NCBI GenBank assembly: GCA_947184155.2
Contig: CAMXCT020000804.1
Coordinates: 72,501-136,500 of the forward strand
DNA: 64,000 bases
Direction: 5' to 3'
DNA from: Cladocopium goreaui
Taxonomy: Eukaryota > Sar > Dinophyceae > Suessiales > Symbiodiniaceae
Below, piece by piece: positions 11,199 to 45,150 of this stretch. The position numbers and the translations under genes are program-made. Every line of letters begins with the position of its first letter. Position 1 is the stretch's first letter. The notes under the pieces are model-generated. The model was given only the letters and a program-made list of their open reading frames with translations, had not been told where the DNA came from and searched no databases.

Positions 11199-11237
11199 TC
11201 ATGACGCCCCGGTGGGCCTCTGAGCAGACTTCAGGCG

Positions 11238-20160: not shown

Positions 20161-20262
20161 GAGAGACAGACAGACAGACAGACACAACACACACACACAG
20201 AGACATACAGAGACAGACAGGCAGGCAGGCAGGCAGACAGACATGCATACATACATACCATT
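20160..20262. repeat. (CAGA)n/(GGCA)n microsatellite
   Basis: CAGA tetranucleotides grade into GGCA and CATA units. Confidence 0.85.
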
Positions 20263-25239: not shown

Positions 25240-25860
25240 GGTATATATATATATATATGCATACTAACATACGAACAAACTAACATATTAACATACTAAC
25301 CTATATACATATATGCATATATACATATATGCATATATACATACATACATATATACAAATATACATATATGCATATATACATATATACATATGTTTGCAT
25401 ATGTACATATATGCATACATGCATGCATGCATGCATGCATACACCCATACATCCATACATACCTACCTACCTACCTACATACATACACACATACACAGAT
25501 ACACACATACACACATACATACATGCATGCATGCATCCATGCATCCATGCATACATGCATACATGCACACATACACACATACACATACATACATGCATGC
25601 ATGCATACATACATACATACATACAAACATACATACATACATACATACATATATACATACATATGTACATTTTAAATTTACCCACATACTCATTTGAATA
25701 TACACATGCGCATTTTTTATGAATATTTACACATACGCGTATATATACACATACGCATGCAGACATACAAGAATATATGCATGTATACAAAAATACAAAT
25801 TTACATTCGCATTAGCAAAAGTACAAAAAAAACATATACATATACATATATTTAGTTATA
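25240..25860. repeat. ATAC/ATGC microsatellite
   Basis: This is CATACATACATGCATGC-type sequence. The many Tyr/Ile/His- or Cys/Met/Val-rich frames on both strands are artefacts. Confidence 0.9.
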
Positions 25861-26070
25861 CATATCATATATTGAGGTATAGTTGCTTATATTTACATTT
25901 GCTTACAAATATTTACTTTTTTTGCATGTGTTACCTATATTGACATTTCTTAGCATATATCTACATATGTCAACATATATATATATATACAATATATTTG
26001 CATATATTTTACATATCTTATCCTTACATATTGTTCATTTATTTACATGTTGACGGTTGTTTACATATAG

Positions 26071-26649
26071 AATGGGCTAGCGCCCTGGTGCCGCCGACCC
26101 CATCGAAAAAAGGTCGTTACGAAAGCATATGCTTACATTTGCCCCGCTTGCAAAGGGAATGTGGCCAGTGATGTGAAGACAGGGAAAATAGACCATCGAA
26201 CCGTCTGTGGGAACCAGTTTTCTGTCAAGGACGGCCTGGTGAATGAGAAAGCATATGTTTACATTTGCCCCGGTTGCAAAGGGAATGTGGCCAGTGACGT
26301 GAAGACAGGGAGAATAGACCATCGAACCGTCTGTGGGAACCAGTTTTCTGTCAAGGACGGCCGGGTGAATGAGAAAGCATATGTTTACATTTGCCCCGGT
26401 TGCAAAGGGAATGTGGCCAGTGATGTGAAGACAGGGAAAATAGACCATCGAACCGTCTGTGCGAACCAGTTTTCTGTTAAGGACGGCCTGGTGAATGAGA
26501 AAGCATATGTTTACATTTGCCCCGGTTGCAAAGGGAATGTGGCCAGTGACGTGAAGACCGGGCGAGTAAATCATCAAACGGTCTGTGGGAAGATGTTTTG
26601 GGTGAAGGATGGCGTTGTGCAGGAGAAAGGCGACAAACGGCACGCGTGA
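26071..26649 (+). CDS. Zinc-ribbon-like repeat protein, block 1
   Basis: The frame is open from 26071 (after TAG 26068) to TGA 26647-26649, with no clear ATG. It contains four units of 42 residues (126-bp period; anchors at 26161, 26287, 26413, 26539). Each has CPxCKGNVASDVKTG, then HRTVCGNQF, so a C-x2-C…H-x3-C pattern that could bind zinc. The last unit diverges (VNHQTVCGKMFWVKDGVVQE) and ends HA. Several conserved positions show only silent or mild changes. The minus strand is also open through both blocks. Molecular function is unknown, and nucleic-acid or protein binding is a guess from the fold type. Confidence 0.55.
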   Translation, partial: NGLAPWCRRPHRKKVVTKAYAYICPACKGNVASDVKTGKIDHRTVCGNQFSVKDGLVNEKAYVYICPGCKGNVASDVKTGRIDHRTVCGNQFSVKDGRVNEKAYVYICPGCKGNVASDVKTGKIDHRTVCANQFSVKDGLVNEKAYVYICPGCKGNVASDVKTGRVNHQTVCGKMFWVKDGVVQEKGDKRHA

Positions 26650-26784
26650 AAAGCGAGAAGAACGGCCGGTTGTGGTGGCCTTTGGCTGCACGGTTGGGCG
26701 TGGCAAAAGGTGCTTAGACATTTGAAGCTTTTGGGAGTTTGAGACTTGGCAAACGGCAGGCTTGAATGCCCAAAATGAAAAGCC

Positions 26785-27339
26785 GTGATTGAGCCATTGC
26801 TGTGGCCTTGTCGGGTACCTGTTGGAATGGCTTTTGCTTGCAAAGGGAATGTGGCCAGTGATGTGAAGACAGGGAGAATAGACCATCGAACCGTCTGTGG
26901 GAACCAGTTTGCTGTCAAGGACGGCCTGGTGAATGAGAAAGCATATGTTTACATTTGCCCCGGTTGCAAAGGGAATGTGGCCAGTGATGTGAAGACAGGG
27001 AAAATAGACCATCGAACCGTCTGTGGGAACCAGTTTTCTGTCAAGGACGGCCGGGTGAATGAGAAAGCATATGTTTACATTTGCCCCGCTTGCAAAGGGA
27101 ATGTGGCCAGTGATGTGAAGACAGGGAAAATAAACCATCGCACGGTGTGCGGGAACCAGTTTTCTGTGAAGGAAGGCGTCGTGAAGGAGAAGGCATATGT
27201 TTACATTTGCCCCGCTTGCGAAGGGAATGTGGCCAGTGACGTGAAGACCGGGCGAGTAAATCATCAAACGGTCTGTGGGAAGATGTTTTGGGTGAAGGAT
27301 GGCGTTGTGCAGGAGAAAGGCGACAAACGGCACGCGTGA
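26785..27339 (+). CDS. Zinc-ribbon-like repeat protein, block 2
   Basis: This is a near-copy of block 1 shifted by 690 bp (anchors at 26851, 26977, 27103, 27229), with the same final unit and the same downstream 120 bp. The first unit lacks its CPxC pair because the frame enters from sequence encoding VGMAFACKGN. One unit reads INHRTVCGNQFSVKEGVVKE. It is a segmental duplication of a repeat gene, and one block may be a pseudogene. Confidence 0.5.
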   Translation: MIEPLLWPCRVPVGMAFACKGNVASDVKTGRIDHRTVCGNQFAVKDGLVNEKAYVYICPGCKGNVASDVKTGKIDHRTVCGNQFSVKDGRVNEKAYVYICPACKGNVASDVKTGKINHRTVCGNQFSVKEGVVKEKAYVYICPACEGNVASDVKTGRVNHQTVCGKMFWVKDGVVQEKGDKRHA

Positions 27340-27437
27340 AAAGCGAGAAGAACGGCCGGTTGTGGTGGCCTTTGGCTGCACGGTTGGGCGTGGCAAAAGG
27401 TGCTTAGACATTTGAACTTTTGGGAGTTTGAGGCCTT

Positions 27438-29530
27438 GAACGCCTATAAGAAGCCATTGCAGCGGCCGGAAGGTGCCCTTGAGCCATTGCTGTGGCCTTG
27501 TGGTGGCTTGTGCGTGCGGGAGTGGCGCGTGTTGGGCTTGTTGGGGTACCTTGTCCCTGCGGAGCTATGCGAGCGCGAACTTTTGGAGGGTTTGGAGGTT
27601 TTGGAGGGTTTGAGGCCTGGCAAACGGCAGCCTTGAACGCCTATAAGAAGCCATTGCAGCGGCCGGAAGGTGCCTTTTCCCTGCGGAGCTATGCGAACGT
27701 TTGGAGGGTTTTGGAGGGTTTTGGAGGGTTTGAGGCCTGGCAAACGGCAGCCTTGAACGCCTATAAGAAGCCATTGCAGCGGCCGGAAGGTGCCCTTGAG
27801 CCATTGCCGTGGCCTTGTGGTGGCTTGTGCGTGCGGGAGTGGCGCGTGTTGGGCTTGTTGGGGTACCTTGTCCTTGCGGAGCTATGCGAACTTTTGGAGC
27901 GTTTGGAGGGTTTTGGAGGGTTTGAGGCCTGGCAAACGGCAGCCTTGAACGCCTATAAGAAGCCATTGCTGCGGCCGGAAGGTGCCCTTGAGCCATTGCT
28001 GTGGCCTTGTGGTGGCTTTTGCGTGCGGGAGTGGCGCGTGTTGGGCTTGTTGGGGTACCTTTTCCCTGCGGAGCTATGCGGAACTTTTGGAGGGTTTTGG
28101 AGGGTTTGGAGCGTTTGAGGCCTGGCAAACGGCAGCCTTGAACGCCTATAAGAAGCCATTGCTGCGGCCGGGGGTGCCCTTGAGCCATTGCTGTGGCCTT
28201 GTGGTGGCTTTTGCGTGCGGCAGTGGCGCGTGTTGGGCTTGTTGGGGTTACTTTCCCTGCGGAGCTGGCCGAACTTTTGGAGGGTTTGGAGGGTTTTGGA
28301 GGGTTTTGGAGGTTTGAGGCCTGGCAAACGGCAGCCTTGAACGCCTATAAGAAGCCATTGCGCGGCCGGGGGTGCCCTTGAGCCATTGCTGTGGCCTTGT
28401 GGTGGCTTTTGCGTGCGGCAGTGGCGCGTGTTGGGCTTGTTGGGGTACCTTTTCCTTGCGGAGCTGGCCGGACTTTTGGAGGGTTTGGAGGGTTTTGGAG
28501 GGTTTGAGGCCTGGCAAACGGCAGCCTTGAACGCTTATAAGAAGCCATTGCAGCGGCCGGAAGGTGCCCTTGAGCCATTGCTGTGGCCTTGTGGTGGCTT
28601 GTGCGTGCGGGAGTGGCGCGTGTTGGGCTTGTTGGGGTACCTTTTCCCTGCGGAGCTATGCGAACTTTTGGAGGGTTTGGAGAGTTTTGGAGGGTTTGAG
28701 GCCTGGCAAACGGCAGCCTTGAACGCCTATAAGAAGCCATTGCAGCGGCCGGAAGGTGCCTTTTCCCTGCGGAGCTATGCGAACGTTTGGAGGGTTTGGA
28801 GGGTTTTGGAGGGTTTGAGGCCTGGCAAACGGCAGCCTTGAACGCCTATAATATAAGAAGCCATTGCAGCGGCCGGAAGGTGCCCTTGAGCCATTGCTGT
28901 GGCCTTGTGGTGGCTTGTGCGTGCGGGAGTGGCGCGTGTTGGGCTTGTTGGGGTACCTTGTCCCTGCGGAGCTATGCGAACTTTTGGAGCGTTTGGAGGG
29001 TTTTGGAGGGTTTGAGGCCTGGCAACCGGAGCCTTGAACGCCTATAAGAAGCCATTGCTGCGGCCGGAAGGTGCCCTTGAGCCATTGCTGTGGCCTTGTG
29101 GTGGCTTTTGCGTGCGGGAGTGGCGCGTGTTGGGCTTGTTGGGGTACCTTGTCCCTGCGGAACTATGCGAGCTTTTGGAGCGTTTGGAGGGTTTTGGAGG
29201 GTTTGAGGCCTGGCAAACGGCAGCCTTGAACGCCTATAAGAAGCCATTGCTGCGGCCGGAAGGTGCCCTGGAGCCATTGCTGTGGCCTTGTGGTGGCTTT
29301 TGCGTGCGAGCATGGCGCCTGGAGGGCTTGTTGGGTTACTTTGTCCCTGCGGAGCTGGGCGAACTTTTGGAGGGTTTGGAGCGTTTGGAGGGTTTTGGAG
29401 GGTTTTGGAGGGTTTGAGGCCTGGCAAACGGCAGCCTTGAACGCCTAAAAGAAGCCATTGCTGCGGCCGGGGGGTGCCCTTGAGCCATTGCTGTGGCCTT
29501 GTAGTGGCTTTTGCCTGCAGCGTTGGGCGT
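27438..29530 (+). repeat. ~192-bp tandem array with short ~120-bp units
   Basis: Twelve anchors (GAACGCCTATAAG or a variant) are at 27438, 27635, 27755, 27947, 28140, 28339, 28529, 28721, 28840, 29036, 29228 and 29439. Most spacings are 190-199 bp, two are about 120 bp, and the last is 211 bp. The units hold a GGAGGGTTTGGAGGG-type run of variable copy number that could form G-quadruplexes. Since 192 is a multiple of three, long frames occur on both strands (+: ALNAYKKPLQRPEGALEPLL). Variable G-runs break the frames, so coding is doubtful. Confidence 0.9.
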
Positions 29531-31091: not shown

Positions 31092-31625
31092 ATGACTCTT
31101 ACAAATCATAAAACAATTTCTGAATTCTTATCTTCAGAACTTCTAAGTTTTGTTGAGCTCTCCGAGGTGGCGATGAAGATGGCGACTTGTGCACGGTGGC
31201 CACTCAAGGGCGGCCACACCGGCCATAAAAACCGGGTTTCTTCGCCTTTGGAGCCACCAGCTAACGCAGACGCACGCTTTTCTCGACTGATCTGCTTCCA
31301 AAAAACACAACTGGCATCCCAAAGTAGGAAAGTATGGAAAAGTGATGAAAAGTTAGTAAACACAGTAGTAAACACGTTTTATTTCGTGGGGGACCATTTT
31401 TTGGAGACGCAGTTCAGTGTGGTTCTTTTCTGTTTGTGGCCGGATGACCCGTGGCTCAAGAAAGGGGAAGGACCTTTGGGTTGTCCCTTTGTTTCCTTGT
31501 GGAAGGTGCAAAAATTATCTCAATTCCACCAAATCGTTTTTACCAATTGTGAACCCAAGGAGTCATTGAAGATGATTTGCGAACTTCCCCCTGAATTGGA
31601 TGAGGGACAAATGTTTGCAGGCTAG
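31092..31625 (+). CDS. Hypothetical protein, first member of ~660-bp array
   Basis: This is a 177-codon frame whose C-terminal 79 codons (FLETQFSVVLFCLWPDDPWL…FHQIVFTNCEPKESLKMICE) recur in the next three units at 32046-32285, 32711-32950 and 33368-33607. Only this member has the longer N-terminal part (FLSSELLSFVELSEVAMKMA). Sequence between units is about as conserved as the frame, so the array need not be coding. No domain is recognised. Confidence 0.35.
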   Translation: MTLTNHKTISEFLSSELLSFVELSEVAMKMATCARWPLKGGHTGHKNRVSSPLEPPANADARFSRLICFQKTQLASQSRKVWKSDEKLVNTVVNTFYFVGDHFLETQFSVVLFCLWPDDPWLKKGEGPLGCPFVSLWKVQKLSQFHQIVFTNCEPKESLKMICELPPELDEGQMFAG

Positions 31626-33960
31626 GGTGGAATGACCCATCATACCCACTGTGTTGGGGGTTGTTGAGGGTTCCTTTTAAGGCTAATTATTCTTGGATTT
31701 CAAAAGCCAAGAAGTGGCGCTACTTGCATGCTCTCATCCGGCCACATGTTCAGGGATAGCGCTGCTTCAGGGAATCTCTCTCAACGCACGAGGTCTCTGA
31801 AACAATCTTTTACAACCTGGCGCTCGGTGCCGATTTCCCACCAAGCAGTTGGCACAATGATGAACATGCGAGCTGTGCACATCCCACTGCGTTGTTAAAG
31901 GAGCCACCAGCTTCCGCAGACGCACGCTTTTCTTCACTGATCTGTCTCAAAAAACACATAACTGATATAACTGGCATCCCAAAGTAGGAAAGTATGGAAA
32001 AGTGATGAAAAGTTAGTAGACACAGTAGTAAACACGTTTTATTTCGTGGGGGGGCATTTTTTGGAGACGCAGTTCAGTGTGGTTCTTTTCTGTTTGTGGC
32101 CGGATGACCCGTGGCTCAAGAAAGGGGAAGGACCTTTGGGTTGTCCCTTTGTTTCCTTGTGGAAGGTGCAAAAATTATCTCAATTCCACCAAATCGTTTT
32201 TACCAATTGTGAACCCAAGGAGTCATTGAAGATGATTTGCGAACTTCCCCCTGAATTGGATGAGGTACAAATGTTTGCAGGCTAGGGTGGAATGACCCAT
32301 CATACCCACTGTGTTGGGGGTTGTTGAGGGTTCCTTTTAAGGCTAATTATTCCTGGATTTCAAAAGCCAAGAAGTGGCCACTTGCCACTTGCATGCTCTC
32401 ATCCGGCCACATGTTCAGGGATAGCGCTGCTTCAGGGAATCTCTCTCAACGCACGAGGTCTCTGAAACAATCTTTTACAACCTGGCGCTCGATGCCAATT
32501 TCCCACCAAGCAGTTGGCTCAATGATGAACATGCGAGCTGTGCACATCCCACTGCGTTGTTAAAGGAGCCACCAGCTTCCGCAGACGCACGCTTTTCTTC
32601 ACTGATCTGTCTCAAAAAACACATAACTGATATAACTGGCATCCCAAAGTAGGAAAGTATGGAAAAGTGATGAAAAGTTAGTAAACACAGTAGTAAACAC
32701 GTTTTATTTCGTGGGGGGGCATTTTTTGGAGACGCAGTTCAGTGTGGTTCTTTTCTGTTTGTGGCCGGATGGCCCGTGGCTCAAGAAAGGGGAAGGACCT
32801 TTGGGTTGTCCCTTTGTTTCCTTGTGGAAGGTGCAAAAATTATCTCAATTCCACCAAATCGTTTTTACCAATTGTGAACCCAAGGAGTCATTGAAGATGA
32901 TTTGCGAACTTCCCCCTGAATTGGATGAGGTACAAATGTTTGCAGGCTAGGGTGGAATGACCCATCATACCCACTGTGTTGGGGGTTGTTGAGGGTTCCT
33001 TTTAAGGCTAATTATTCCTGGATTTCAAAAGCCAAGAAGTGGCCACTTGCCACTTGCATGCTCTCATCCGGCCACATGTTCAGGGATAGCGCTGCTTCAG
33101 GGAATCTCTCTCAACGCACGAGGTCTCTGAAACAATCTTTTACAACCTGGCGCTCGATGCCAATTTCCCACCAAGCAGCTGGGACAATGATGAAGATGCG
33201 AGTTGTGCACATCCCACTGCGCTCCTAAAGGAGTTCCGCAGACGCACGCTTTTCTTCACTGATCTGTCTCAAAAAACACATAACTGATATAACTGGCATC
33301 CCAAAGTAGGAAAGTATGGAAAAGTGATGAAAAGTTAGTAAACACAGTAGTAAACACGTTTTATTTCGTGGGGGGGCATTTTTTGGAGACGCAGTTCAGT
33401 GTGGTTCTTTTCTGTTTGTGGCCGGATGACCCGTGGCTCAAGAAAGGGGAAGGACCTTTGGGTTGTCCCTTTGTTTCCTTGTGGAAGGTGCAAAAATTAT
33501 CTCAATTCCACCAAATCGTTTTTACCAATTGTGAACCCAAGGAGTCATTGAAGATGATTTGCGAACTTCCCCCTGAATTGGATGAGGGACAAATGTTTGC
33601 AGGCTAGGGTGGAATGACCCATCATACCCACTGTGTTGGGGGTTGTTGAGGGTTCCTTTTAAGGCTAATTATTCCTGGATTTCAAAAGCCAAGAAGTGGC
33701 CACTTGCCACTTGCATGCTCTCATCCGGCCACATGTTCAGGGATAGCGCTGCTTCAGGGAATCTCTCTCAACGCACGAGGTCTCTGAAACAATCTTTAAG
33801 GGCAGCCGTCCTATTTTTTTTCTTCCCGGACTTGGAAGCATCAACCAGAATATGGCTGAGCCAAGTCTGAGATGAGCCACGGCGCCTCCAAAAGTCATCA
33901 CGTTGGAGGTTGGTGTTAAAAATGCCGATTTCCCACCAAGCAGCTGGCACAATGATGGTT
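31251..33960 (+). repeat. Four tandem units of ~650-730 bp
   Basis: Units begin at about 31251, 31901, 32566 and 33232 with (GAGCCACCAGC)TTCCGCAGACGCACGC. Each carries two open frames, one of 79 codons and one of up to 80 codons (VPFKANYSWISKAKKWPLAT…). The last unit has about 110 bp of foreign sequence at 33797-33907 in place of a short stretch. The near identity suggests recent duplication. Confidence 0.9.
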
Positions 33961-34533: not shown

Positions 34534-34944
34534 GAATGGCTAGAGGTGGAACACTTTAGGTGAGAATGGATCAGTTTAGTCAATACATGGGGGTGGATCT
34601 CACTGCCATTTCATTGGTGGGGAATAAGATGGAATAAGAACCATTCTACATTCTACACCCCAACGTTTGTATAGATAGAAGATGATAGAAGATACGTCTG
34701 TCGGTATGTCATAAACATCCATAAAACGTTGTAATGAAAACATCCGGATTACACCAGTTTACATCTATAATCATCCATAAATAGTTGACAATAAACCAAG
34801 CAAAGTGGTGTGATCCGCTTCATTGTCAACCATTTTCAGCACCCACAGGTCAAGACGGATTCAAAATCACCAAAGATCTCTGTGGGTCGCATCACCGCTT
34901 GTTGGTTTCAGATGATTCTTACTTACCGTCCTAACCAGGATGAC

Positions 34945-34995
34945 AATCACCATCATCGTCGTCGTCGTCGTCGTCGTCATCATCATCATCATCAT
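34945..34995. repeat. (CGT)n(ATC)n microsatellite, target of element 2
   Basis: GTCGTCGTC then ATCATCATC run up to the LTR. ATC repeats resume at 43515 on the other side, so the element split one microsatellite. Confidence 0.85.
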
Positions 34996-35228
34996 TGTTG
35001 AAATCAAGTGTACAACTTCCCTGTCTGTAATCTCAGCAGCTGTAGCCCACGCGCTGTACTTTTCACTGTAGCGCTCGAGTAACGCTAGCTCAAGGCTAAC
35101 TCAAGGTAACGCTCAAGGGCCCTGTATGGAGCCCAAATGTATCGTACCATGACATGTACTCAGAGTAGACTAACATGTTGTATCAGCAACTGTATAGCTC
35201 ATGTACATGTGCAGGTGTATTCTTAACA
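34996..35228 (-). repeat. 3' LTR of copia element 2
   Basis: It is 233 bp and identical by eye to 43282-43514. It contains twelve TGTA words (at 35009, 35026, 35041, 35055, 35067, 35123, 35138, 35155, 35179, 35191, 35202 and 35216), mostly 11-17 bp apart. Confidence 0.95.
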
Positions 35229-35530
35229 CCCTGCCTCAACTGCAACATGTACTTCACAAACATTGAAAGAATCATTGTATAACTGAACTGTATTAAATCA
35301 TGTAAGACATCAGTCATCTGTACAAAACTTTGCCTTCGAAAATCCTGTACATCGATCGAAAACGTAGTGCCGTGTTGATGTACAGACATCTTGTAGCCAG
35401 AATTGTCAGATGGATGTATCCATGCAAAGTTACTCACATGTAGTCAGAAACCGTTGTAAAAGAACTGTAGCAGTATCCAACCATGTACTTCACAAATTCA
35501 GATTTATAGAACATCTCATGTAGATGCAGC
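35229..35530 (-). other. Region between 3' ORF and 3' LTR
   Basis: An 84-codon minus frame (35183-35437; FIQFSYTMILSMFVKY-like hydrophobic centre) runs into the LTR. It could be a short late protein, but its C-terminus is LTR sequence, so it is not called as a gene. TGTA words stay frequent. Confidence 0.35.
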
Positions 35531-36505
35531 TCAGCCTGTAATCTCCACAGCATCTGTAGGCTCTTCTGGAGTGTCTTCGATGCCTGTAGACGATTCATCA
35601 ATGGGCTGTACCTGAGGTGGCAATTGGGCGCCAGGAGTGCCCATCGGCACTGTACCCGATCCTGTCTGTGGGATATTCACGTTGTATTTTGAGATGTAGC
35701 TCACCACCTTGTAGAGCTGATCTGTAGGAAAGTGCTGTAGCACTTGGGCCCCATGCCAGCTCAGTGCCATTGTCAGTCCTGCATGGACTGGATCTGTCTC
35801 GTTCAGTGTATCGAGGATTGTAGACACATGCAATGGGATGTGCTCAAGAAAGAGGTACCCGTTGTCAAGGCTGTAGCGGCTGAGAATGTCAGCCATGTTG
35901 ATCTGCACCTGGAAGATCCTTTGTGAATTGATTTCCTTTTGAGAAAAGCTGTACACCATGTTCTCCAGAAATTGGACTCTCATGCCAACGAATCCCCTAT
36001 TGAAAACGTTGACCATCTTGTTGTACATCAAGGCGGTCAGTCGAGCCAATTCCGGGGTGCACACCTTCACATAGAATTCATCTGTGTACTGGGTCTTGAT
36101 GTACCCGTGATACACCAAGAAAATCAACCAGGTGATCGCGTCATGCATCGAAAAATGTCCCATTGTCATCCCGTACGTGCCCTGTGGACGAATCTGGGCA
36201 TGCTTGTACCCTTCGCCGCGGCCACTCATGTAATGGCCTTTGGTCAATGGAATGTACAACGTATCCACTGACTCATCGATGGGTTCTGTACTGCGAAGGT
36301 CTGTAAATTCGTCCCTAGCTGTAACCTCGTGCATCTCTCCGAGGTCATAGAGGCACCCTAAATCCGCTCCGGTGTAGAGGGATTTGTAGGGCTGTACGCC
36401 CGTGACGCCGGTCATGCGTGCCATGGCTGTATCCGAGGCTGTAGCTAAAAACCAGGGCTTGCACCTAAAAAGTCGGACGGCGCGGCCAGCAAAGTGTATC
36501 GCCAA
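35531..36505 (-). CDS. Extra 3' ORF of copia element 2, 324 codons
   Basis: This uninterrupted frame lies downstream of RNase H, where ordinary copia elements have nothing. The likely start is the Met in MARMTGVTGVQPYKSLYTGA or the upstream Met at 36505. It reads as a compact, mostly helical protein (HDAITWLIFLVYHGYIKTQY, FVGMRVQFLENMVYSFSQKE, NGYLFLEHIPLHVSTILDTL) with a Pro/Glu-rich, probably disordered tail. There is no clear signal peptide, one possible membrane segment (AITWLIFLVYHGYI), and no motif I recognise. Intactness beside a broken polyprotein suggests selection or recent capture. Envelope-like, capsid-like or host-derived origins remain open. Confidence 0.65.
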   Translation of the reverse strand: MAIHFAGRAVRLFRCKPWFLATASDTAMARMTGVTGVQPYKSLYTGADLGCLYDLGEMHEVTARDEFTDLRSTEPIDESVDTLYIPLTKGHYMSGRGEGYKHAQIRPQGTYGMTMGHFSMHDAITWLIFLVYHGYIKTQYTDEFYVKVCTPELARLTALMYNKMVNVFNRGFVGMRVQFLENMVYSFSQKEINSQRIFQVQINMADILSRYSLDNGYLFLEHIPLHVSTILDTLNETDPVHAGLTMALSWHGAQVLQHFPTDQLYKVVSYISKYNVNIPQTGSGTVPMGTPGAQLPPQVQPIDESSTGIEDTPEEPTDAVEITG

Positions 36506-36663
36506 AACATGTACTGCAAAACGACAGTGAAAAAGAAAACGATCATGTAACCCTTGGGGTGAATGATGTAGTAAAAAGAAGTGATCATGTACGTGTCAAA
36601 CTGTATCACAATGACCATGTAACCCTTAAGGTAGACATACGTGTACATGATATACTCAATCAA
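36445..36663 (-). CDS. Small hydrophobic frame upstream of the 3' ORF
   Basis: This is a 72-codon minus frame overlapping the start of the 324-codon frame. It is Tyr/Ile/Val/Phe-rich with a repeated KGYM motif (YLKGYMVIVIQF, then HPKGYMIVFFFTVV). It could be a membrane peptide or a by-product of the dense TGTA/CATGTA words, and the latter is at least as likely. Confidence 0.25.
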   Translation of the reverse strand: MIEYIMYTYVYLKGYMVIVIQFDTYMITSFYYIIHPKGYMIVFFFTVVLQYMFWRYTLLAAPSDFLGASPGF

Positions 36664-36735
36664 GTAGGCTGCAGATACGTGTACACTTGTTGTGTTCGTA
36701 TGCTGGTGTGTGAAACTGCTGTAGCTGGATTCTCC

Positions 36736-37392
36736 TCAATTGTCTGGCGGACGTATGCCCGCAGCATGTAAGTGCCATTGGAGCACTTCTCGTTGCACGT
36801 ATTTTGTAAGAATGTCTGACGGATTGTGTTTGGTGTTGATTTTGTGTATGGAAAGGATGCCGTCGTGAATGAGGTGTTGTATGAACATGTATTTGAGCTC
36901 GATGTGTTTGGCTCGCTTGGACACGCCAATGCGTGTAGCCATGCTTTTGCCTGATGTGCTGTCAGTGTGTATTTTGAGGCTGATCTTGTTGTGTAGGATC
37001 TCTCCCAAGAAGTTCTTGAGGTGCAATGCCTCTGTAGCACCTGTACCAATCGCGTAGAACTCGCTTTCTGCTGAAGAAAGTGCTACTACGGATTGTGTAC
37101 GTGAACCGAAGTGGACTGTAGTCCCAAGGAATTGGATCACGAAGCCAGATGTACTTTTGCGTGTAACCTGGCATCCTGCCCAGTCTGCATCTGTGTAGAC
37201 TGTCAGGTCGAGCTGCTCCTTGTTGTTGGGCTGTAGAAACACCGTTGGTTGTATCACGAACTTGTGGTGCTTTGTACCTGCTAGGTACCTGAGGCAATGT
37301 CGTAGCCGCTGTCTGTCGCGGACTGTTGTTGTAAAGAACGCGCTAGTTCTTTTACTGCAAAGCTCATGTCTGGTCGTGTGTATGAAAGCCAT
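36736..37392 (-). CDS. pol: RNase H of copia element 2
   Basis: Copia RNase H is well preserved: LTVYTDADWAGCQVTRKSTS, VVALSSAESEFYAIGTGATE, LKIHTDSTSGKSMATRIGVS and NPSDILTKYVQREVLQWHLH. The acidic catalytic residues (Asp in YTDAD, Glu in SAESE, Asp in HTDS, Asp in SDILTK) are present. The frame differs from the RT frame. The change lies near 37325, where RT ends in FAVKELARSL and this frame resumes at TTTVRDRQRLRHCLRYLAGT. A single-base indel explains it. Confidence 0.85.
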   Translation of the reverse strand: MAFIHTTRHELCSKRTSAFFTTTVRDRQRLRHCLRYLAGTKHHKFVIQPTVFLQPNNKEQLDLTVYTDADWAGCQVTRKSTSGFVIQFLGTTVHFGSRTQSVVALSSAESEFYAIGTGATEALHLKNFLGEILHNKISLKIHTDSTSGKSMATRIGVSKRAKHIELKYMFIQHLIHDGILSIHKINTKHNPSDILTKYVQREVLQWHLHAAGIRPPDN

Positions 37393-39794
37393 TGCAGCTT
37401 TCCGACCATACGCCTGTAGTGGGCGTGCTCTTCTGTGTCAAGGAGTTCATCCTGTTCTGTTGTAGGTGTAGTGCTGTTGGAACCTGTAGTGACGGCTGCT
37501 GTTGCATTTTGTAGGTTTGCTTCTTGCAGGATGTTGTCGATGTAACTGTTTCCCAAAGAGACTTCAAAGTGATCTCCTTTGTTTGTAATCTTCCTTCCAA
37601 GGAAGTCAATTGTGTTGTTTGTTGTGCAGGTGCCTGTATGGCGAAGCAACATCTTGGCCTGTATCTCCTTGAAAATTCGAGCGACCTCATCAGGTTCTCC
37701 TGTAAAGAGAAGATCGTCAACATAGACCATGATGTAAACTTTGCCATTGGTGTAGACATTGGGCTCTGATTGTAGTCTTTTTAGACCGAGGTCTGTAAGC
37801 ACTTTTGCTAAGTGCTCCTGCCATGCTTTCGGGCTGCTTCGTAGACCATACATTGCTTTGTGTAGCCTCCAGAGAATGTTTGGATTGGTGTAGTACTCCT
37901 TTGGTGGTCTGAGTACCAGGCCTGCTGTTGCTGCGAGTGCGTGTAAGAAAGCGGTAGATATGTCACCTACCTGTACAATCCATCCTCTGGCCATGCTGAG
38001 TGCTAGGAGTATCCTTAGCACTGCAAAGAGTGGTGTACTGGCGTACACATCATCTTGGTCTTCGATGTGTTCGGTGTACCCTTTTGCTACGATCCTTGCT
38101 CGTACTTCATCTCCTTTGGATCTGTAGACCCATCTTGACTCGATGATGTTGTCGAGATCAAGTTCTTGTCTTTGTTGAGGTGTAAGCTTTGTAACATCTA
38201 CCTCCTCGTACACTCCTTGTGTTCTCATGGATTCCATCTCCTTGTGCATTCCTTGCTTTAACTTCTCTGTATCGAATCCTTCGTTGTTGTAGATGTGAGG
38301 CTCGAGTAGCCTCTGTTCTGCTCGTACCTCCTGTGGGTCTTCGCTTGTTGCTGTTGTAACCTTCTTGCCGCTCTTCAATGCGACTGTAACTGCATTGATT
38401 CTCAATCTTGGTCTTGTACTGTCTCTCTCCTTTGTCTCTTCTGGTCTCGCTGGTGCTTGCTGTGTTGTACTTTGCTTTCTGCTCTTGCTTGCACTTCCTT
38501 CATGTACTTGGTCGTCAACTGGTCTGGTTGGTGAGCCTGTTGGCATTGGTGATGTTCCCAACCTCATTGCTGTAGAGTGTGTTGACGTTGATGCTGAAGC
38601 TGTGCTTTGATGTTGTTCTTCGACTCTTTGTTTCTTTGTTGTCTCTGTTCTTGCTTTCTTTGCTTCTGTTTCTGCTTCCTTTGTGTTGGTAGCATGCTTT
38701 GCTGCTGTTGTTGGTTGATTGCCTGTACTCGTTTCTTCGTGTGGTGTTTGCCCTGCCTGGACTTGTTGCTCTGTTGATGCTGGTGTTGGTGGTAGTATGA
38801 AAGCTGGCTGGAATCCAATTGGTGGTGTAGGATTCCATGGTGTGCCAGTGATTGTGTCCATCAATTGAGCATCGTACCTGTTTGTACCTGCTAGTCGTCT
38901 GATTGTACGTGAGCGTACAATTCTGCCTGCAATGCCAATGAAGGACTCTCCAGTGGATGTACATTTGCCGAGCCAAATGCCTTTGTAGAACCTGGGGTCA
39001 AGCTTTGGTCGTTGTTTGATCGACTGTACCATGTACATCACAGTCTCTCCAAATTCACAGAGAGCTGCATTGTGTGTTCGTCCCCATCTTTTGTGGTAGC
39101 TGGTGTAGCCATCTGCTCTGATGAGGAATCTGTTGATCAGGTATGCTGAGTGTCGTACTGCCCAAGCCATGATTGGGTGTGTTGTCGGCAGTCTTGTGTT
39201 GTAGTTCTGCTGTACCTGTGTCCTGAGTGTCCTGATGTGGCCAGCAAGGGTACGGTGGAATCTTTCGATGCTGCCACTGCTTTGTGAGCTGTATGCCGGT
39301 GCAAAACGCACTGTCATGTTGCCTGTTGCTTTGGCTGTAGCTCTAAGGAGCGCCATCAGGTATTCTTCTTGGTCACTTTGTAATATGCCTTCTGCTCTTC
39401 CACATTCAAGAATGAATGCTTGTAGGCATGCCTGTGCATAGCCAAACTGTCCTTTCTTGTCCGTAAGCATTGTTGCCATTGCCATGCCGGTCTGTATGTC
39501 TATGGCTGTCAGGATTGGTACCGGCCATTTGTCTTCATAGGTCTTGATGTAGGTGAAATCAACTTGTATGATTGGCTGTTTCGATGTTTGCTGTTGGTGG
39601 CTTGTCTGTCTGCCACGAGATTGTATGCACACAGGACACCAACTCCTGTATGGCATGTGTGTAAGGTTGTGCTGTTGTATCTCCTGCGGTGTAGGTTGTA
39701 CCGGTTGCATCATTGCTTTCGCATTTGTTTGCGCTCTGTTGTTCATCTTCTTCTTCTGTTGGCATTTCTTTTCTGTATTCTCTTCTTTCTTCAA
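37281..39794 (-). CDS. pol: Integrase and reverse transcriptase of element 2
   Basis: This is an 837-codon frame. Residues of about 42-56 hold the integrase zinc motif (HNLTHMPYRSWCPVC). The catalytic core has Asp79 (VDFTYIK), Asp141 (LQSDQEEY) and Glu177 (SIERFHR), with exactly 35 residues between the last two. A Ser/Thr/Gln-rich linker follows at about 330-450. RT motifs are VYRSKGDEVRARIVAKGY, VQVGDISTAFLHAL, LHKAMYGLRSSPKAW and catalytic YVDD at about 691-694. The N-terminus is probably reached by a frameshift near 39750, since the adjacent frame (MRRIEDDWTTEPQPTRQQEW) looks like the natural upstream part. Confidence 0.9.
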   Translation of the reverse strand: MKKEENTEKKCQQKKKMNNRAQTNAKAMMQPVQPTPQEIQQHNLTHMPYRSWCPVCIQSRGRQTSHQQQTSKQPIIQVDFTYIKTYEDKWPVPILTAIDIQTGMAMATMLTDKKGQFGYAQACLQAFILECGRAEGILQSDQEEYLMALLRATAKATGNMTVRFAPAYSSQSSGSIERFHRTLAGHIRTLRTQVQQNYNTRLPTTHPIMAWAVRHSAYLINRFLIRADGYTSYHKRWGRTHNAALCEFGETVMYMVQSIKQRPKLDPRFYKGIWLGKCTSTGESFIGIAGRIVRSRTIRRLAGTNRYDAQLMDTITGTPWNPTPPIGFQPAFILPPTPASTEQQVQAGQTPHEETSTGNQPTTAAKHATNTKEAETEAKKARTETTKKQRVEEQHQSTASASTSTHSTAMRLGTSPMPTGSPTRPVDDQVHEGSASKSRKQSTTQQAPARPEETKERDSTRPRLRINAVTVALKSGKKVTTATSEDPQEVRAEQRLLEPHIYNNEGFDTEKLKQGMHKEMESMRTQGVYEEVDVTKLTPQQRQELDLDNIIESRWVYRSKGDEVRARIVAKGYTEHIEDQDDVYASTPLFAVLRILLALSMARGWIVQVGDISTAFLHALAATAGLVLRPPKEYYTNPNILWRLHKAMYGLRSSPKAWQEHLAKVLTDLGLKRLQSEPNVYTNGKVYIMVYVDDLLFTGEPDEVARIFKEIQAKMLLRHTGTCTTNNTIDFLGRKITNKGDHFEVSLGNSYIDNILQEANLQNATAAVTTGSNSTTPTTEQDELLDTEEHAHYRRMVGKLQWLSYTRPDMSFAVKELARSLQQQSATDSGYDIASGT

Positions 39795-39944
39795 AGGTTG
39801 TAGATCCTGTCCATTCTTGTTGTCTTGTTGGTTGTGGTTCTGTAGTCCAATCGTCTTCGATTCTTCTCATGTTGTGCTCCTCTCGTATGTGTGTTGCTCT
39901 GTATGGGAGCAGTTGATAGTTTGCTCACTTGTGTTCTTCTTCAA

Positions 39945-40915
39945 CTTGGGGAGGGGGGGGTGCACCACCCCCCCCCCAGCTTTGTCACTATAGCCATTCA
40001 TAGTCACTGTAGCCATTCACAAAGGGGAGGGTGGGTCCACCACCCCCCCCCTCAGCTGCCGACAAACAAGGGGGGGTGGGTCCACCACCCCCCCCCTCAG
40101 CTGCCGACAAACAAGGGGGGGGTGGGTCCACCACCCCCCCCCCTCAGCTGCCGACAAACAGGGCGGAGTGGGTCCACAACCCCCTCCCCCCAGCTTCCAA
40201 CGATCAGGAGGGAAGGCTCCACCACCCCCTACTCCTCATCTCGCAGCAAATCTTTTTTTAGATTTTGGCCTGACTAGAAGTAGAAGCAGTAGTAGTAGTA
40301 GTAGTAGCAGCAGTAGTAGTAGTAGTAGCATAACACAAATTTACGCTTTGGAGTTAGTTGTTGATAATAGTAGTAGTAGTAGTAGTGGTAGTGGTAGTGG
40401 TAGTAGTAGTAGTAGTGGTAGTAGTAGTAGTAGTAGTAGTAGTCGTAGTAGTAGTTGTTGTTGTAGTTGTAATAGTAGTAATAGCAGTAGCAGTAGCAGC
40501 AGCAGAAGCAGCAGGAGTAGTAGTAGTAGTAGCAGCAGGAGTAGTAGTAGTAGTAGTAGAAGTAGTAGTAGTAGTAGCAGCAGGAGGAGTAGTAGTAGTA
40601 GTAGTACCCCCCCCCACCTTGGATGGGCACAGCTGGGGGGGGGGGGGGGCACCCCCCCCCAACCTTGGATGGGCACAGCTGGGGGAGGGGGGTGGTGCAC
40701 CCCCCCCCATGGAATGGGAACAGCTGGGGGGGTGGTGCATCTCCCATGGTCTGAAGTAAGCTGGGGTTGGTGGATATTTAGGCTTTGAGGTAGGGATGGT
40801 GCGTTGTGCAGGAGATGATACTAGCAAGGCTGGAGGGGGGGGTGGTGCAGCCACTTCTAGCTTGGGCGGGCTTGGAGCAAGGGTTGGGGGGGGGGGGAGG
40901 TGCACCCCCCCCTAG
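39945..40915. repeat. G/C-hairpin and (AGT)n island inside element 2
   Basis: The left part (about 39945-40240) has about five units of GGGGGGTGGGTCCACCACCC followed by CCTCAGCTGCCGACAAACA. The centre (40279-40607) is (AGT)n with AGC variants. The right part (40608-40915) has GGGCACAGCTGGGGGGG units with TGCACCCCCC, inverted relative to the left. G-runs next to C-runs form many hairpins. TGTA, abundant elsewhere in the element, is almost absent. It is probably a secondary insertion or expansion within the retrotransposon. Confidence 0.8.
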
Positions 40916-41736
40916 CTTGAATGAAAATGAACGCCAAATGGAGAACTCTCGAGCAGTTTGTAGGCATCTGGTCCATTGTCTTCAGGTGTCGGTGTGTAGA
41001 ACTCTGTCCTTGGTCTCACATGTACTCTCTTCCAAAACCTTCCTTCTTTGATCCAGTAGTCTGTTGTACCATCCATCTGCATTGGTGTTGGTAGTGTATC
41101 TTCTTTCTCTTGCTGCTTGTACGTGTGTCTGTACTTCACTTCCTTTCCTTCATACATTCGTTTCTGAACTTGTTGTTCCTTGTTTGTATCCTGTTTCTGT
41201 TGGCCTGCTGTTGTCTTGTCACGAAGAATCCTGAACCATGTTTCTCCTTGCCATTGTGTACCTGTAACCTCTCTGTTTGCTTCCGGTTTAGTGAGTGACT
41301 TGAACTTGTCTTCAAGCACTGTCTGCATACCGTTTTCCTTGTAGACAATTGTTTTCCTGTAGTCGTCCAGTCTGTCAAATTGTACTGGACATGCTGATTG
41401 GTTGCCGTATCCTGGTGTGAACAATGCCTTTCTTCCTCTCTTGTGTACCCTGACCAGGTATCCTTGTTCGTTGTACTTCCAGAAGTCGTTGTTGCCTCCT
41501 TGCTGAGGTCGTGGTCCTGTTGCTGTAAGTGTGTGTGTGTTGGGGCAATCATTGCCACTTGTCCTTGTGGAGTGTTTTGTATCACCAGGTTGAGTTCGAA
41601 ACCTTGTTCCAGGAGTCTTGTAACAGTTGTAACACTGACGATGGGGTGTCGTATGCCATCTATGACGTAGAATGGCATCACCAAGTGTTGTCCTTGTATG
41701 TTCTTGAAGCGCACCCATCTGTAGCCAAGAACCCAA
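40912..41736 (-). CDS. pol: Pol spacer with two repeated WxxxxR-H-PR modules
   Basis: After the protease the frame shifts near 41540, and this frame carries the continuation (NDFWKYNEQGYLVRVHKRGR, then CPVQFDRLDDYRKTIVY). A second, weaker copy follows (TDYWIKEGRFWKRVHVRPRT, then DAYKLLESSPFG). Between them is a charged Gln/Lys-rich linker. A related module sits in Gag of element 1. Function is unknown. The first ~70 codons of this open frame are probably out-of-frame shadow. Confidence 0.6.
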   Translation of the reverse strand: MGSWLQMGALQEHTRTTLGDAILRHRWHTTPHRQCYNCYKTPGTRFRTQPGDTKHSTRTSGNDCPNTHTLTATGPRPQQGGNNDFWKYNEQGYLVRVHKRGRKALFTPGYGNQSACPVQFDRLDDYRKTIVYKENGMQTVLEDKFKSLTKPEANREVTGTQWQGETWFRILRDKTTAGQQKQDTNKEQQVQKRMYEGKEVKYRHTYKQQEKEDTLPTPMQMDGTTDYWIKEGRFWKRVHVRPRTEFYTPTPEDNGPDAYKLLESSPFGVHFHSS

Positions 41737-42497
41737 AGGGGCTCATCTGTAACTGAGCGAAGTGGTGGTGTTTGTTCCTCTGTGAGAGGCATCAGTGGAA
41801 AGTCTGTACCAAAGGTTGGTGGACAGACATGTACTGCTGCGCCACTGTCGATCATGAGCTCGACTGTCTTGTAGGTGTTGAGGCCTGTGGTTGTGACTGA
41901 AGCAATTGTAGTTGTTTCAAACTCTACTGTGGAAACTACCTGCGCTGGTGCTGTAGGCATCTGTGGTGGCTGTTGTTCCTGGTTGTATGCCGCTTGCTGT
42001 TGCTGGTCATATTGCCACTGTTGGTGATCTGGGAACCATTGTTCCTCGTAGTGCCACTGTTCTTGTTCTGTCCATGGTTGTTGGTAGTATGACTGTTGTT
42101 GGTTGTACTGATCTGTGCCTTCATCCATGTCTGTGACGTTGTAGACTGCCACTCTGCAGTCCCTTGCATAGTGGCCCTGTTGACCACATTTGTAACATGT
42201 TCCTTTTCTTTTGCCTTTGTTCATTGTTGTACTTTGCCATTGTGGTGGTCCTTTTCCTTTGCTCTTTCCTTTGTACTGCATTGCTCCCTTGAAGGGGTTG
42301 CCATGTCCAATCGGTGTTGGACCTTTGCCTTTGTATCCTTGTTGGCTGTATCCTGTGTATCCTTTTCCTTTGTTGTGCCATTGTGTCTTTCCTTTTCCTT
42401 TGTTGTACTTTCCTTTACCCTTGTTGTTGTACTTTCCTTTTCCTTTGTACGTAGCTCCAATGTCCATGGGCTGTGCATCATTTGTGCTGCTGTTCAT
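41136..42497 (-). CDS. gag-pol: Nucleocapsid and aspartic protease of element 2
   Basis: This is in the same frame as the Gag start but after an in-frame TAA. A Lys/Gly-rich basic region (YKGKGKYNNKGKGKYNKGKG) leads to a CCHC zinc knuckle (CYKCGQQGHYARDC). A Gln-rich linker and the protease follow, with catalytic Asp in VELMIDSGAAVHVCP and a flap/core region (VLGYRWVRFKNIQGQHLVMP). Beyond VSVTTVTRLLEQGFELNL the frame loses conservation near 41540. Confidence 0.85.
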   Translation of the reverse strand: MNSSTNDAQPMDIGATYKGKGKYNNKGKGKYNKGKGKTQWHNKGKGYTGYSQQGYKGKGPTPIGHGNPFKGAMQYKGKSKGKGPPQWQSTTMNKGKRKGTCYKCGQQGHYARDCRVAVYNVTDMDEGTDQYNQQQSYYQQPWTEQEQWHYEEQWFPDHQQWQYDQQQQAAYNQEQQPPQMPTAPAQVVSTVEFETTTIASVTTTGLNTYKTVELMIDSGAAVHVCPPTFGTDFPLMPLTEEQTPPLRSVTDEPLWVLGYRWVRFKNIQGQHLVMPFYVIDGIRHPIVSVTTVTRLLEQGFELNLVIQNTPQGQVAMIAPTHTHLQQQDHDLSKEATTTSGSTTNKDTWSGYTREEERHCSHQDTATNQHVQYNLTDWTTTGKQLSTRKTVCRQCLKTSSSHSLNRKQTERLQVHNGKEKHGSGFFVTRQQQANRNRIQTRNNKFRNECMKERK

Positions 42498-42503
42498 TGC
42501 CTG

Positions 42504-43178
42504 TTATTGTGCTTGCATCTTGGAGAACGCTGTTGATGCTCTGTGGTATTCGAGAATGAGTTCTCGAATGTCTGCATATCGTTGTATGGCTCCTGCTCGT
42601 AGTTGTAGGTATTGTTGTAGTGGTCCTTTGGTCTCATTGAGTAGTATTGCAATTTTGATGTTGTCAGGTATTGGTGCTTGGTTGTCTCTTTCGTATCTTG
42701 CTATTTCAAATTCCCATGTCGTAAAAGACTCCTCAAATTTGTTTTCGTTGAACTGTGGTTTCAAAAGCTTTGTAAGGTACCCGACACTGCGTGTACCAAG
42801 TGGAATTGAAAAGCGTCTGTGTAGTTGTCTCCATGTCTCGAGACCAACTGCTTGTAGTGTATGTTGTCTGCAGAGGACAGCTGCTTGTCCTTGGCAGACG
42901 TTGATGAGTAGGTAGTGTAGGTCTTTGCTGAGTTGTATCCAAAGGTCTGCTTCTTCTCTGTTTCTTGCACCGTCTGCTAGAAGCTCATCTGTAACTGGTT
43001 GATCAAATGTTTCTGCTATCTGTAGGAGCCTGGGGAATTGTGAATTCTGTAGCCCCAAGTAGGCCACAAACTTGTGTTTCCATTCTTCAAATGTTGCGTA
43101 CTCTCCTGTAAAGTGTGGTGGTGGTAGTTTGTATCTGTGCATCGCATTGAGGTCTCCTCCAGTTGTAGCTGCTGCCAT
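42504..43178 (-). CDS. gag: Gag capsid region of element 2
   Basis: This is a 224-codon frame from ATG 43178. It starts MAAATTGGDLNAMHRYKLPP, then shows the copia Gag pattern of helices with conserved Trp positions (YATFEEWKHKFVAYLGLQNS, LETWRQLHRRFSIPLGTRSV, FEESFTTWEFEIARYERDNQ). It ends at TAA 42504-42506, and the frame is open again directly after. The stop lies between Gln codons (CAA TAA CAG). It may be a mutation or a read-through site controlling nucleocapsid-Pol synthesis (inference). Confidence 0.85.
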   Translation of the reverse strand: MAAATTGGDLNAMHRYKLPPPHFTGEYATFEEWKHKFVAYLGLQNSQFPRLLQIAETFDQPVTDELLADGARNREEADLWIQLSKDLHYLLINVCQGQAAVLCRQHTLQAVGLETWRQLHRRFSIPLGTRSVGYLTKLLKPQFNENKFEESFTTWEFEIARYERDNQAPIPDNIKIAILLNETKGPLQQYLQLRAGAIQRYADIRELILEYHRASTAFSKMQAQ

Positions 43179-43265
43179 GTTTGTTGTTGTATGTTCTCAC
43201 CTTAATGCTGTAGCTTTGTTGCCAATGTGTATTGGAGCTCACCCTGTCCTGTATCGTCCAGGGAT

Positions 43266-43281
43266 CACTGCTCCGCTACCA
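43266..43281 (-). promoter_or_regulatory. Primer-binding site of element 2
   Basis: Read on the minus strand it is TGGTAGCGGAGCAGTG, directly adjoining the 5' LTR. It shares TGGTAGCG with element 1 and would pair with a tRNA ending CGCUACCA, probably initiator Met. Confidence 0.8.
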
Positions 43282-43514
43282 TGTTGAAATCAAGTGTACA
43301 ACTTCCCTGTCTGTAATCTCAGCAGCTGTAGCCCACGCGCTGTACTTTTCACTGTAGCGCTCGAGTAACGCTAGCTCAAGGCTAACTCAAGGTAACGCTC
43401 AAGGGCCCTGTATGGAGCCCAAATGTATCGTACCATGACATGTACTCAGAGTAGACTAACATGTTGTATCAGCAACTGTATAGCTCATGTACATGTGCAG
43501 GTGTATTCTTAACA
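43282..43514 (-). repeat. 5' LTR of copia element 2
   Basis: This 233-bp copy has the same ends and the same TGTA pattern as 34996-35228. It should contain the promoter for the minus-strand transcript. Confidence 0.95.
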
Positions 43515-44860
43515 ATCATCATCTTTATCATCATCTTTATCATCATCATCATCATCATCATCCTCATCCTCATCCTCATCCTCATCATCGTCATTGTCAT
43601 CGTCATCGTCGTCATCCTCATCTTTATCATCATCGTCATCATCATCATCGTCATCATCATCATCATCGTCATCGTCATTGTCATCATCATCGTCATCATC
43701 ATCGTCATCATCATCATCATCGCCATTGTCATCGTCATCGTCATCATCATTGCCGTCATCATCATTGCCGTCATCATCATCATCGTCGTCATCGTCATCG
43801 TCATCATCGTCGTCATCACCATCGTCGCCATCATCATCGTCGTCATCATCATCATCGTCGTCATCGTCATCATCATCATCATGATCATTATCATAATGAT
43901 CATGATCATCGTTATCATCACCGTCATCATCTTCATCGTCGTAGTCATCATCATGATTATCATCGTCGTCATCATCGTCATCGTCATCGTCGTCGCTATC
44001 GTCATCGTCATCACCATGATCATCATCATCATCATCAGCACTATCATCATGATCATGATCGTGATCATCATTTTCATCCTCATCGTCATCATCATCATCA
44101 TCGTCATCATCATGATCATAACCGTCGTCATCATCATGATCATCATCGTCATCCATCATCATCACCACCATCATCTTCACCATCACCATCATCACCATCA
44201 TCATCACCATCATGGCCATCGTCCGTCATCCATCATCCATTTTCCATCTCCATCAATACCATCATCATTACCATCCACATCATCACCATCATCACCACCA
44301 TCAATCATCATCACCATCACCATCATTATCATGATCATTATCCTTACCATCATTCACCATCATCACCATCACCATCATCATCACCATCAATCACCATCAT
44401 CATCAGTGTCATTTTCACCACCATCATCATCACCATCACCATCATCAATCATCAATCATCATCATCATCGTCATCAATCAACATCGCCATCATCACCATC
44501 ATCATCACCGTCCACCATCATCACCATCAGCAGCAGCATCTTCATTATCAAGTATCATCATTATCATCATCATCCTTTTCTTTATCACCAACCACCAGTC
44601 ATAAATCACCATCGTCAGCATACATCATCACCATCATCTGAGTCTGCATCACCACCATGATCATATTTCATCATCACCATCGTCATGGTCATCATCAGTT
44701 TCAATATCTTCTTCATTACCACCATTGCCACCATAATCGTCATCACCATCATCATCTTTGTCAATCAACATCATCAACATCAATCATCATCTTGATCATC
44801 ACCAACATCAATCACTATCATTGTCATCATCATCACCATCATTGCCATCATATTCATGCA
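43515..44860. repeat. (ATC)n microsatellite, 1.3 kb
   Basis: This is ATC/GTC/CTC trinucleotides, then CACCATCAT variants. The long Asp-, Ile-, His- and Ser-rich frames on both strands are artefacts. Confidence 0.95.
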
Positions 44861-45150
44861 TTCACGCATTCACGCATTCATTCACGCATTCATTGACGCA
44901 TTCATTCATTCATTCATTCATTCATTCGTTCATTCATTCATTCAGTCAGTCAGCCATTCAGTCATTCATTCTTTCTGTCTTCCTTCCTTTCTTTTTTTGT
45001 CGTTTCCTTCTGTTCGTTCTTTCTTTCTTTCATTCATTCTTTCATTTTTCTCTTTCATTCTTTCATTTTTTCATCCTTCCATCCTTTCATTCTTTCATTT
45101 TCATTCGTTCTTTCACTCACTCACTTACTCACTCACTTTTTCGTCATTAT
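44861..45150. repeat. (ATTC)n/(TTTC)n microsatellite
   Basis: CATTCATTCATT grades into TTTCTTTC and ACTCACTC. Confidence 0.9.

Follow-up and report, generated by a model that had tools for sequence, protein, structure and literature searches.

A regularly spaced UACA word along the RNA of a Cladocopium goreaui Copia retrotransposon, and other words in its sister families

Main finding

A Copia long terminal repeat (LTR) retrotransposon in the genome of the dinoflagellate Cladocopium goreaui, here called element 2, was found to carry the word TACA, read as UACA in its RNA, about once every 35 nucleotides (nt) along its sense strand. The word recurs in LTRs, untranslated parts and coding DNA, exceeds what composition, protein sequence and codon usage predict, and keeps a minimum distance from its neighbours in the noncoding parts. 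Element 2 lies on the minus strand of a 64,000-nt stretch of contig CAMXCT020000804.1 (positions 72,501 to 136,500), referred to as the window, so that its TACA appears as TGTA on the plus strand. That the word is held by selection on the nucleic acid of the element is well supported. The reading tentatively favoured here, at somewhat less than an even chance, is that such words are lineage-specific self-recognition sites on the element RNA, with Gag as the most likely reader.

Excess of TACA in element 2

The sense strand holds 217 TACA and 21 TGTA in 8519 nt, and 214 of the TACA lie outside an insert of 970 nt. Dinucleotide shuffles of the whole element gave 69.0±7.1 TACA (maximum 86 of 200 shuffles), and shuffles that also preserve trinucleotides gave 195.6±6.4 (maximum 210 of 100). 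When element 2 was cut into ten regions, nine exceeded their dinucleotide-shuffle mean. Its parts, all on the minus strand, are the following:

34996-43514, minus: copia element 2, a Copia LTR retrotransposon of 8519 nt (sense strand = minus; RNA reads UACA)
43282-43514, minus: 5' LTR, 233 bp, 12 TACA, starting TGTT and ending AACA
43270-43281, minus: primer-binding-like site TGGTAGCGGAGC, directly after the 5' LTR
40915-43178, minus: gag and protease region, with the Gag zinc knuckle CYKCGQQGHYARDC and TACA in three phases
39945-40914, minus: insert of G/C tracts and CTA-type repeats, 970 nt, between the protease and integrase regions
36739-39944, minus: integrase, reverse transcriptase and RNase H region, with frame changes in the window copy
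36430-36736, minus: untranslated spacer, 11 TACA
35534-36424, minus: open reading frame 3 (ORF3), behind pol, 297 amino acids from its ATG
35229-35530, minus: 3' untranslated part, 14 TACA
34996-35228, minus: 3' LTR, the same 233-bp sequence as the 5' LTR, 12 TACA

Against the means of the dinucleotide shuffles, the excess amounted to 12 against 2.8 in each LTR, 48 against 16.3 and 7 against 1.5 in two gag-protease pieces, 79 against 22.2 from integrase to RNase H (36737-39944), 11 against 4.0 in the spacer (maximum of 300 shuffles, 10), 26 against 4.5 in the ORF3 region (35531-36429) and 14 against 3.1 in the 3' untranslated part. The leader has 4 TACA against 1.2, a count that its shuffles also reach. 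The insert, which serves as an internal control, showed no excess (3 against 7.3). An exact recount returned what the original prediction had listed: 12 TGTA in the plus-strand LTR at gaps of 17, 15, 14, 12, 56, 15, 17, 24, 12, 11 and 14; TGTA at 35683, 35695, 35710, 35723 and 35736, covering each of the three phases of the downstream frame; ten in 38101-38520, and none in 11001-11420 of another Copia element of the window, element 1. Its chance expectation of about one TGTA per LTR was too low, the shuffles giving 2.8.

In the coding parts, codons were shuffled synonymously 1000 times with protein and codon usage kept. Here, 159 TACA were observed against 81.6±5.5 (maximum 99 of 1000), and TACA was the most enriched of all four-letter words. 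The excess was present in all three codon phases, with 54, 42 and 63 words against 42.6, 13.8 and 25.3. Codon choice shifts accordingly before a CAN codon: ATA encodes isoleucine in 13 of 15 such places and in 13 of 85 others, CTA encodes leucine (CTN) in 14 of 17 and 16 of 111, and GTA encodes valine in 11 of 19 and 14 of 90. As a side observation, coding TA in element 2 is nearly always followed by C (TAC 214 of 258; TAA 6, TAG 21, TAT 17).

The noncoding parts hold 42 TACA, with 11.7 expected from shuffling and 4.4 by composition. Avoidance of TpA was rejected as the only cause, given that noncoding TA is near expectation (71 against 77) and yet TACA reaches 42 against 4.4. An origin from microsatellites was likewise rejected, as the TACA repeats of the window differ in appearance and the simple-repeat insert of the element lacks the word. 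No longer motif was evident in counts of the letters flanking TACA.

The enrichment thus survives the composition-matched (dinucleotide and trinucleotide) and codon-preserving shuffles against which it had been proposed to check it, and the surrounding DNA shows nothing similar. The remaining TACA and TGTA peaks in the window coincide with simple repeats of TA, TACA and TGTA type at 5000-6230, 19300-20250 and 25240-26050, which account for them. Element 1, which belongs to another lineage and was compared by counts and spacing, showed no TACA excess, no dominant ACA word and no under-dispersed word among 17.

Spacing of the word

Outside the insert, the 214 sites follow one another at a mean gap of 35 nt, with a coefficient of variation of 0.71 against 0.92±0.06 under random placement (0 of 2000 as low). 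Among the 28 four-letter words with at least 60 copies, TACA was the sole under-dispersed one, many others being clustered. From 12 to 62 nt after a site, the next one was met at a rate of about 2.7-4.4% per nt; closer than 12 nt, the rate was no higher than 1.5%. In the noncoding parts, 3 of 51 gaps were shorter than 12 nt, against 19.3±2.8, and none was shorter than 11 nt, the minimum.

Copies of the window family

A search with the LTR through the same genome (1.166 Gb, 6202 contigs) gave 40 matches: 17 pairs, four unpaired LTRs and the window copy's own two. The 17 pairs with their interiors, full-length elements of 6949-7578 nt, were analysed as relatives. All 17 carry the word, with 201-231 TACA (28.8-30.5 per kb) and 16-23 TGTA per copy, the gap coefficients lying between 0.65 and 0.76. 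In flanks of 600 nt, TACA numbers 0-24, reaching six or more in 5 of 17. The insert at 39945-40914 seems private to the window copy, because the relatives are shorter than its 8519 nt.

Substitutions were counted in 18 aligned copies and compared with expectations computed from the same substitution spectrum. The 413 substitutions private to one copy brought 8 gains of TACA (8.4 expected) and 43 losses (49.3 expected); the 192 shared ones brought 6 gains (4.3 expected) and 16 losses (21.7 expected). Mutation at present erodes the word, and mutation bias alone is not supported as its source, because new substitutions do not favour TACA. The losses are close to neutral, which is to be expected of copies already inserted, and do not by themselves demonstrate purifying selection; the case for it comes from the synonymous, noncoding and spacing results. 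In pairwise comparison, TACA was lost in 7.05% against 11.8% overall, the lowest value among words with more than 20 copies. When regions were taken separately, its retention came 13th of 64 in noncoding parts and 6th of 96 in coding ones.

Different words in sister families

Five further Copia families of the same genome (C6169, C458, C928, C4727 and C984), one copy each, were subjected to three tests over all four-letter words: noncoding counts against dinucleotide shuffles, coding counts against codon shuffles, and evenness of spacing for words with at least 60 copies. In pol, C6169, C458 and C928 are 51-53% identical to the window family (C6169, 51%), and C4727 and C984 are 52% and 54% identical to the relative P0001.

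In the window family, TACA ranked first in all three tests (z-scores of 8.7, 12.0 and -3.3). In C6169, the first place went to ACAA each time (8.2, 8.5 and -2.9) and the second to CAAT. The remaining four families had AACA and CAAC, together CAACA, as the top two words in the noncoding and evenness tests. In the coding test, CAAC led in all four, and AACA followed it directly in C458 and C984; AACA came third in C928 and did not reach the top four in C4727 (z 2.9). The 886 noncoding nt of C928 contain 33 CAACA, against 1.5 by composition. TACA itself reached z-scores of only 0.0-1.8 (noncoding) and 0.7-2.5 (coding) in the CAACA families. These sister families, which the original prediction had no means of seeing, make up the strongest element of the results.

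Short gaps were also scarce in sister families. None of the 29 noncoding ACAAT gaps of C6169 was below 11 nt (null 4.8). For CAACA, C458 had 3 of 37 such gaps (null 10.0), C928 6 of 38 (11.0), C4727 3 of 35 (9.1) and C984 1 of 40 (10.2). Overlaps at 3 nt (CAACAACA) account for seven of these 13 short CAACA gaps. By coefficient of variation, the noncoding five-letter words were significantly even only in C984 (P 0.0003) and C4727 (P 0.04), the others giving 0.11-0.64.

In a pol tree, C458, C928, C4727 and C984 group together with P0014 (100/100) and the window family with P0001 (99/100). C6169 stands apart; the outgroups are long-branched and the deeper forks unsettled. Site positions shared with the window family within 1 nt amount to 0.13 against 0.09 in C928, 0.19 against 0.10 in C458 and 0.26 against 0.12 in C6169, so that sharing between families with different words is above chance but low. 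Word and density persist within a lineage, and the individual sites largely differ between lineages. In a proxy based on proteins only, TACA-compatible dipeptides outlasted AACA-compatible ones in P0001 (13 of 27 against 2 of 28 where the dipeptide differs), but likewise in distant relatives such as P0030 (12 of 57 against 1 of 48). No DNA of relatives was confirmed in IMG/VR or GTDB contigs, and a P0012 search gave, among 33 scored candidates, solely families already seen.

Recognition of self RNA as the favoured explanation

Confinement to one strand, coverage of the whole length including the LTRs, a minimum distance and a lineage-specific spelling are together what would be expected of a protein that binds single strands sequence-specifically. 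In addition, one word per about 35 nt with exclusion near 11-12 nt fits a protein coat. Under the proposed mechanism, each Copia lineage would repeat its own short word (TACA, CAACA or ACAA(T)) along its whole sense RNA, where selection would keep it. An RNA-binding protein encoded by the element, most likely Gag through its zinc knuckle and basic arm, would read the word, binding one per footprint of roughly 11-12 nt and thereby coating its own RNA at many points. The RNA of the element would thus be chosen over host RNA and that of other families for assembly of the retrosome or particle. A protein as reader, Gag as that protein and selective packaging as the use are each proposed from the pattern of the sequence. 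Gag is the first candidate because each of the six families has a CCHC knuckle and because the Gag proteins of Ty1 and Ty3 are believed to recognise cis-acting sequences on their own RNA, according to the available part of PMC4974528. The original prediction had named a repeated protein-binding or packaging site as one possibility; the new evidence favours that option, with binding itself a suggestion from sequence.

In a broader form, which we hold to be nearly but not quite an even bet, the words may amount to an identity code. Each lineage would mark its RNA from end to end with a word of its own, 4-5 letters long and recurring once per 25-40 nt; the protein footprint would set the minimum distance, codon choice would be overridden, and about 200 sites would be rewritten when the specificity of the reader drifts. 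Co-resident retrotransposons would then avoid packaging each other's RNA.

Several observations weigh against recognition by Gag or soften the evidence for it. The zinc knuckles of Gag differ little between families with different words, and in Ty1 and Ty3 the known cis-acting regions for packaging are found towards the ends of the RNA and not over its whole length, as far as described in the available part of PMC4974528. Predicted RNA folds do not leave TACA especially unpaired: mean unpaired values from a rough local fold, some of them outside 0-1, were 0.52 for TACA, 0.54 for GACA, 0.66 for CACA and 0.78 for AACA, and hairpin loops were unsupported in this rough test. The scarcity of short gaps in coding parts is partly set by the protein (0.067 in codon shuffles against 0.116 from density), and in C928 the exclusion is weak (6 of 38 CAACA gaps below 11 nt, against 11.0). 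C6169 has a smaller TACA excess beside its own word (coding z 4.7, noncoding z 2.4). Furthermore, neither the 17 copies (median pairwise identity 0.97) nor the four CAACA families, being related, are independent observations, and pairwise retention of TACA is only modestly above that of other words.

Alternative explanations

A host factor could read the word instead, either an RNA-binding protein that serves export, stability or translation, or an enzyme that modifies RNA. The three words share ACA, which occurs at 60-70 per kb in all six families, and by their letters fit the NNCA context in which N1-methyladenosine (m1A) is enriched in Amphidinium mRNA (PMC11549093, available part). One host factor would not, however, predict different flanking letters among sister families of one genome, and 81.4% of m1A lies in 3' untranslated regions according to the same partial source, whereas the word covers the whole element; we consider a host reader unlikely. 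Somewhat less probable still is ORF3, a fast-changing protein encoded behind pol, which might coat or mark the RNA and whose drift in specificity would drive the change of word. Between the window family and C6169, ORF3 is 23% identical over 191 amino acids (E 5e-9), against 51% for pol, and downstream frames exist in C458, C928, C4727 and C984 as well. Yet 12 of the 17 relatives lack the beginning and roughly the first half of ORF3 and carry the word at full density; shared gaps of 619, 582 or 487 alignment columns, matching window positions 35971-36503 or part of them, occur in L011-L014, L016, L018 and L020-L025. Elements with a damaged ORF3 have thus multiplied. Moreover, models of ORF3 reached predicted local distance difference test (pLDDT) scores of 35 and 38, with no fold predicted.

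Strandedness and coverage of the whole length would fit minus-strand cDNA as well as RNA, and the word could be read as TGTA in single-stranded cDNA by the nucleocapsid protein (NC) or integrase during reverse transcription. We regard this as improbable, the need to select one RNA among many making RNA the simpler site. A lineage-specific mutation bias, for instance of the reverse transcriptase of each family, would account at once for frame independence and for lineage specificity. Contrary to what repeat-induced or editing hypermutation would produce, however, substitutions do not flow into TACA, neither private (8 gains against 8.4) nor shared (6 against 4.3). The insert did not acquire the word, and a minimum distance of 11 nt is not what such a bias would generate; this explanation is disfavoured and very improbable. 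Of the two causes first offered at the nucleic-acid level, selection therefore stood, on synonymous positions, untranslated DNA, LTRs, relatives and spacing, and mutation alone fell on the substitution counts; the same data support the signal as UACA in the element RNA. UGUA is a site for PUF proteins and for the polyadenylation factor CFIm, and TGTA abounds on the antisense strand of element 2; an antisense signal, which had been among the options first offered, might for example stop antisense transcripts. The antisense forms of the sister words are TGTTG and ATTGT, which show the same kind of pattern without TGTA, and this option is the least probable of all. A base-modification context, also suggested at the outset, fares poorly, as the words differ among sister families and hydroxymethyluracil showed no motif when mapped in Breviolum; an older report described a TA and TC preference in Crypthecodinium (PMC11071213, available part).

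Comparison with known systems and significance

How LTR retrotransposons choose their own RNA among many similar RNAs is poorly known. Several systems resemble recognition of self RNA through a repeated word, the explanation preferred above. DNA uptake sequences of Neisseria and Haemophilus and Chi sites are short, dense genome words that mark self, with a strand or spacing bias; they act on cellular DNA, whereas the word described here is one-stranded relative to a retrotransposon RNA. A-rich HIV exemplifies a lineage-specific retrovirus composition that extends over coding and noncoding RNA alike. The present elements, A-rich as well, share such a nucleotide habit, but here a single, regularly spaced word is in excess of the dinucleotide, trinucleotide and codon nulls.

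The packaging signals known from RNA viruses are degenerate motifs in stem-loops. In contrast, an exact linear word of 4-5 letters recurs here about 30 times per kb with a minimum distance, lies also in LTRs and coding DNA, and is spelled differently between sister families. The likeness is in the many sites on the genomic strand, selected beyond the protein code. In single-stranded RNA viruses, such dispersed sites on the genomic RNA are thought to be bound by the virus's own coat protein while the particle assembles, according to the available part of PMC6281560. If the proposed mechanism holds, it would work like these dispersed signals, using instead an exact, linear word that sister families spell differently.

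Ty1 and Ty3 are LTR retrotransposons whose RNA is selected by Gag, and Ty3 NC has one CCHC finger, as in element 2; here, binding is suggested by sequence. The sites of Gag on the RNA are described as not precisely known, and the available part of PMC4974528 places cis-acting sequences at the RNA ends and describes no repeated word over the whole RNA. The present sequences name candidate recognition words, predict a footprint and offer three spellings in six families, which makes the RNA choice of Gag directly testable. If the proposal is true, selection on RNA recognition shapes codon choice along the whole element. No description of such word tags or of such a code in retroelements was found in the literature searched, which mostly excludes subscription papers, and to our knowledge no retroelement has been described with them. 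Novelty is claimed for the phenomenon and not for the mechanism.

Further features of element 2 and the window

Element 2 is assigned to Copia by its paired LTRs (TG...CA) and by an RVT_2 domain with a weakly matched integrase upstream. The CCHC knuckle and RVT_2 (residues 575-792, E 1.7e-32) scored above cut-off; the integrase domain rve, in the same frame at residues 99-182 (E 0.00039), lies below its curated cut-off. The gag-protease region of the window copy is broken by one stop and one frame change. Among the proteins found related to element 2 in a protein search, the sole named ones are two of Amphidinium carterae, at 24 and 29% identity. The letters TGGTAGCGGAGC, which we take to be a primer-binding-like site, also stand directly after the LTR in C6169, C458 and C928.

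The ORF3 of the window has no Pfam or PDB sequence match and one database relative (97%, 66 member sequences); that of C6169 (L035:60-1037) has ten.

ATGAT occurs on both flanks of element 2 but within GAT-type repeats, so that a target duplication is not conclusive. The window copy sits in repeats of ATC/GAT type (34900-34995 and 43515-44900), and tandem repeats also flank C6169, C928, C4727 and C984 (L031/L032, L038, L039 and L040). Repeats are possibly preferred target sites of these elements.

Elsewhere in the window, a minus-strand open frame at 26077-27564 runs over tandem repeat units, visible at 26100-26600, with a sub-threshold LIF-R_Ig-like hit as its sole Pfam match. Finally, about four direct repeats lie at 31252-33797, spaced at 657-665 bp and mutually 87-100% identical over 300-nt stretches.

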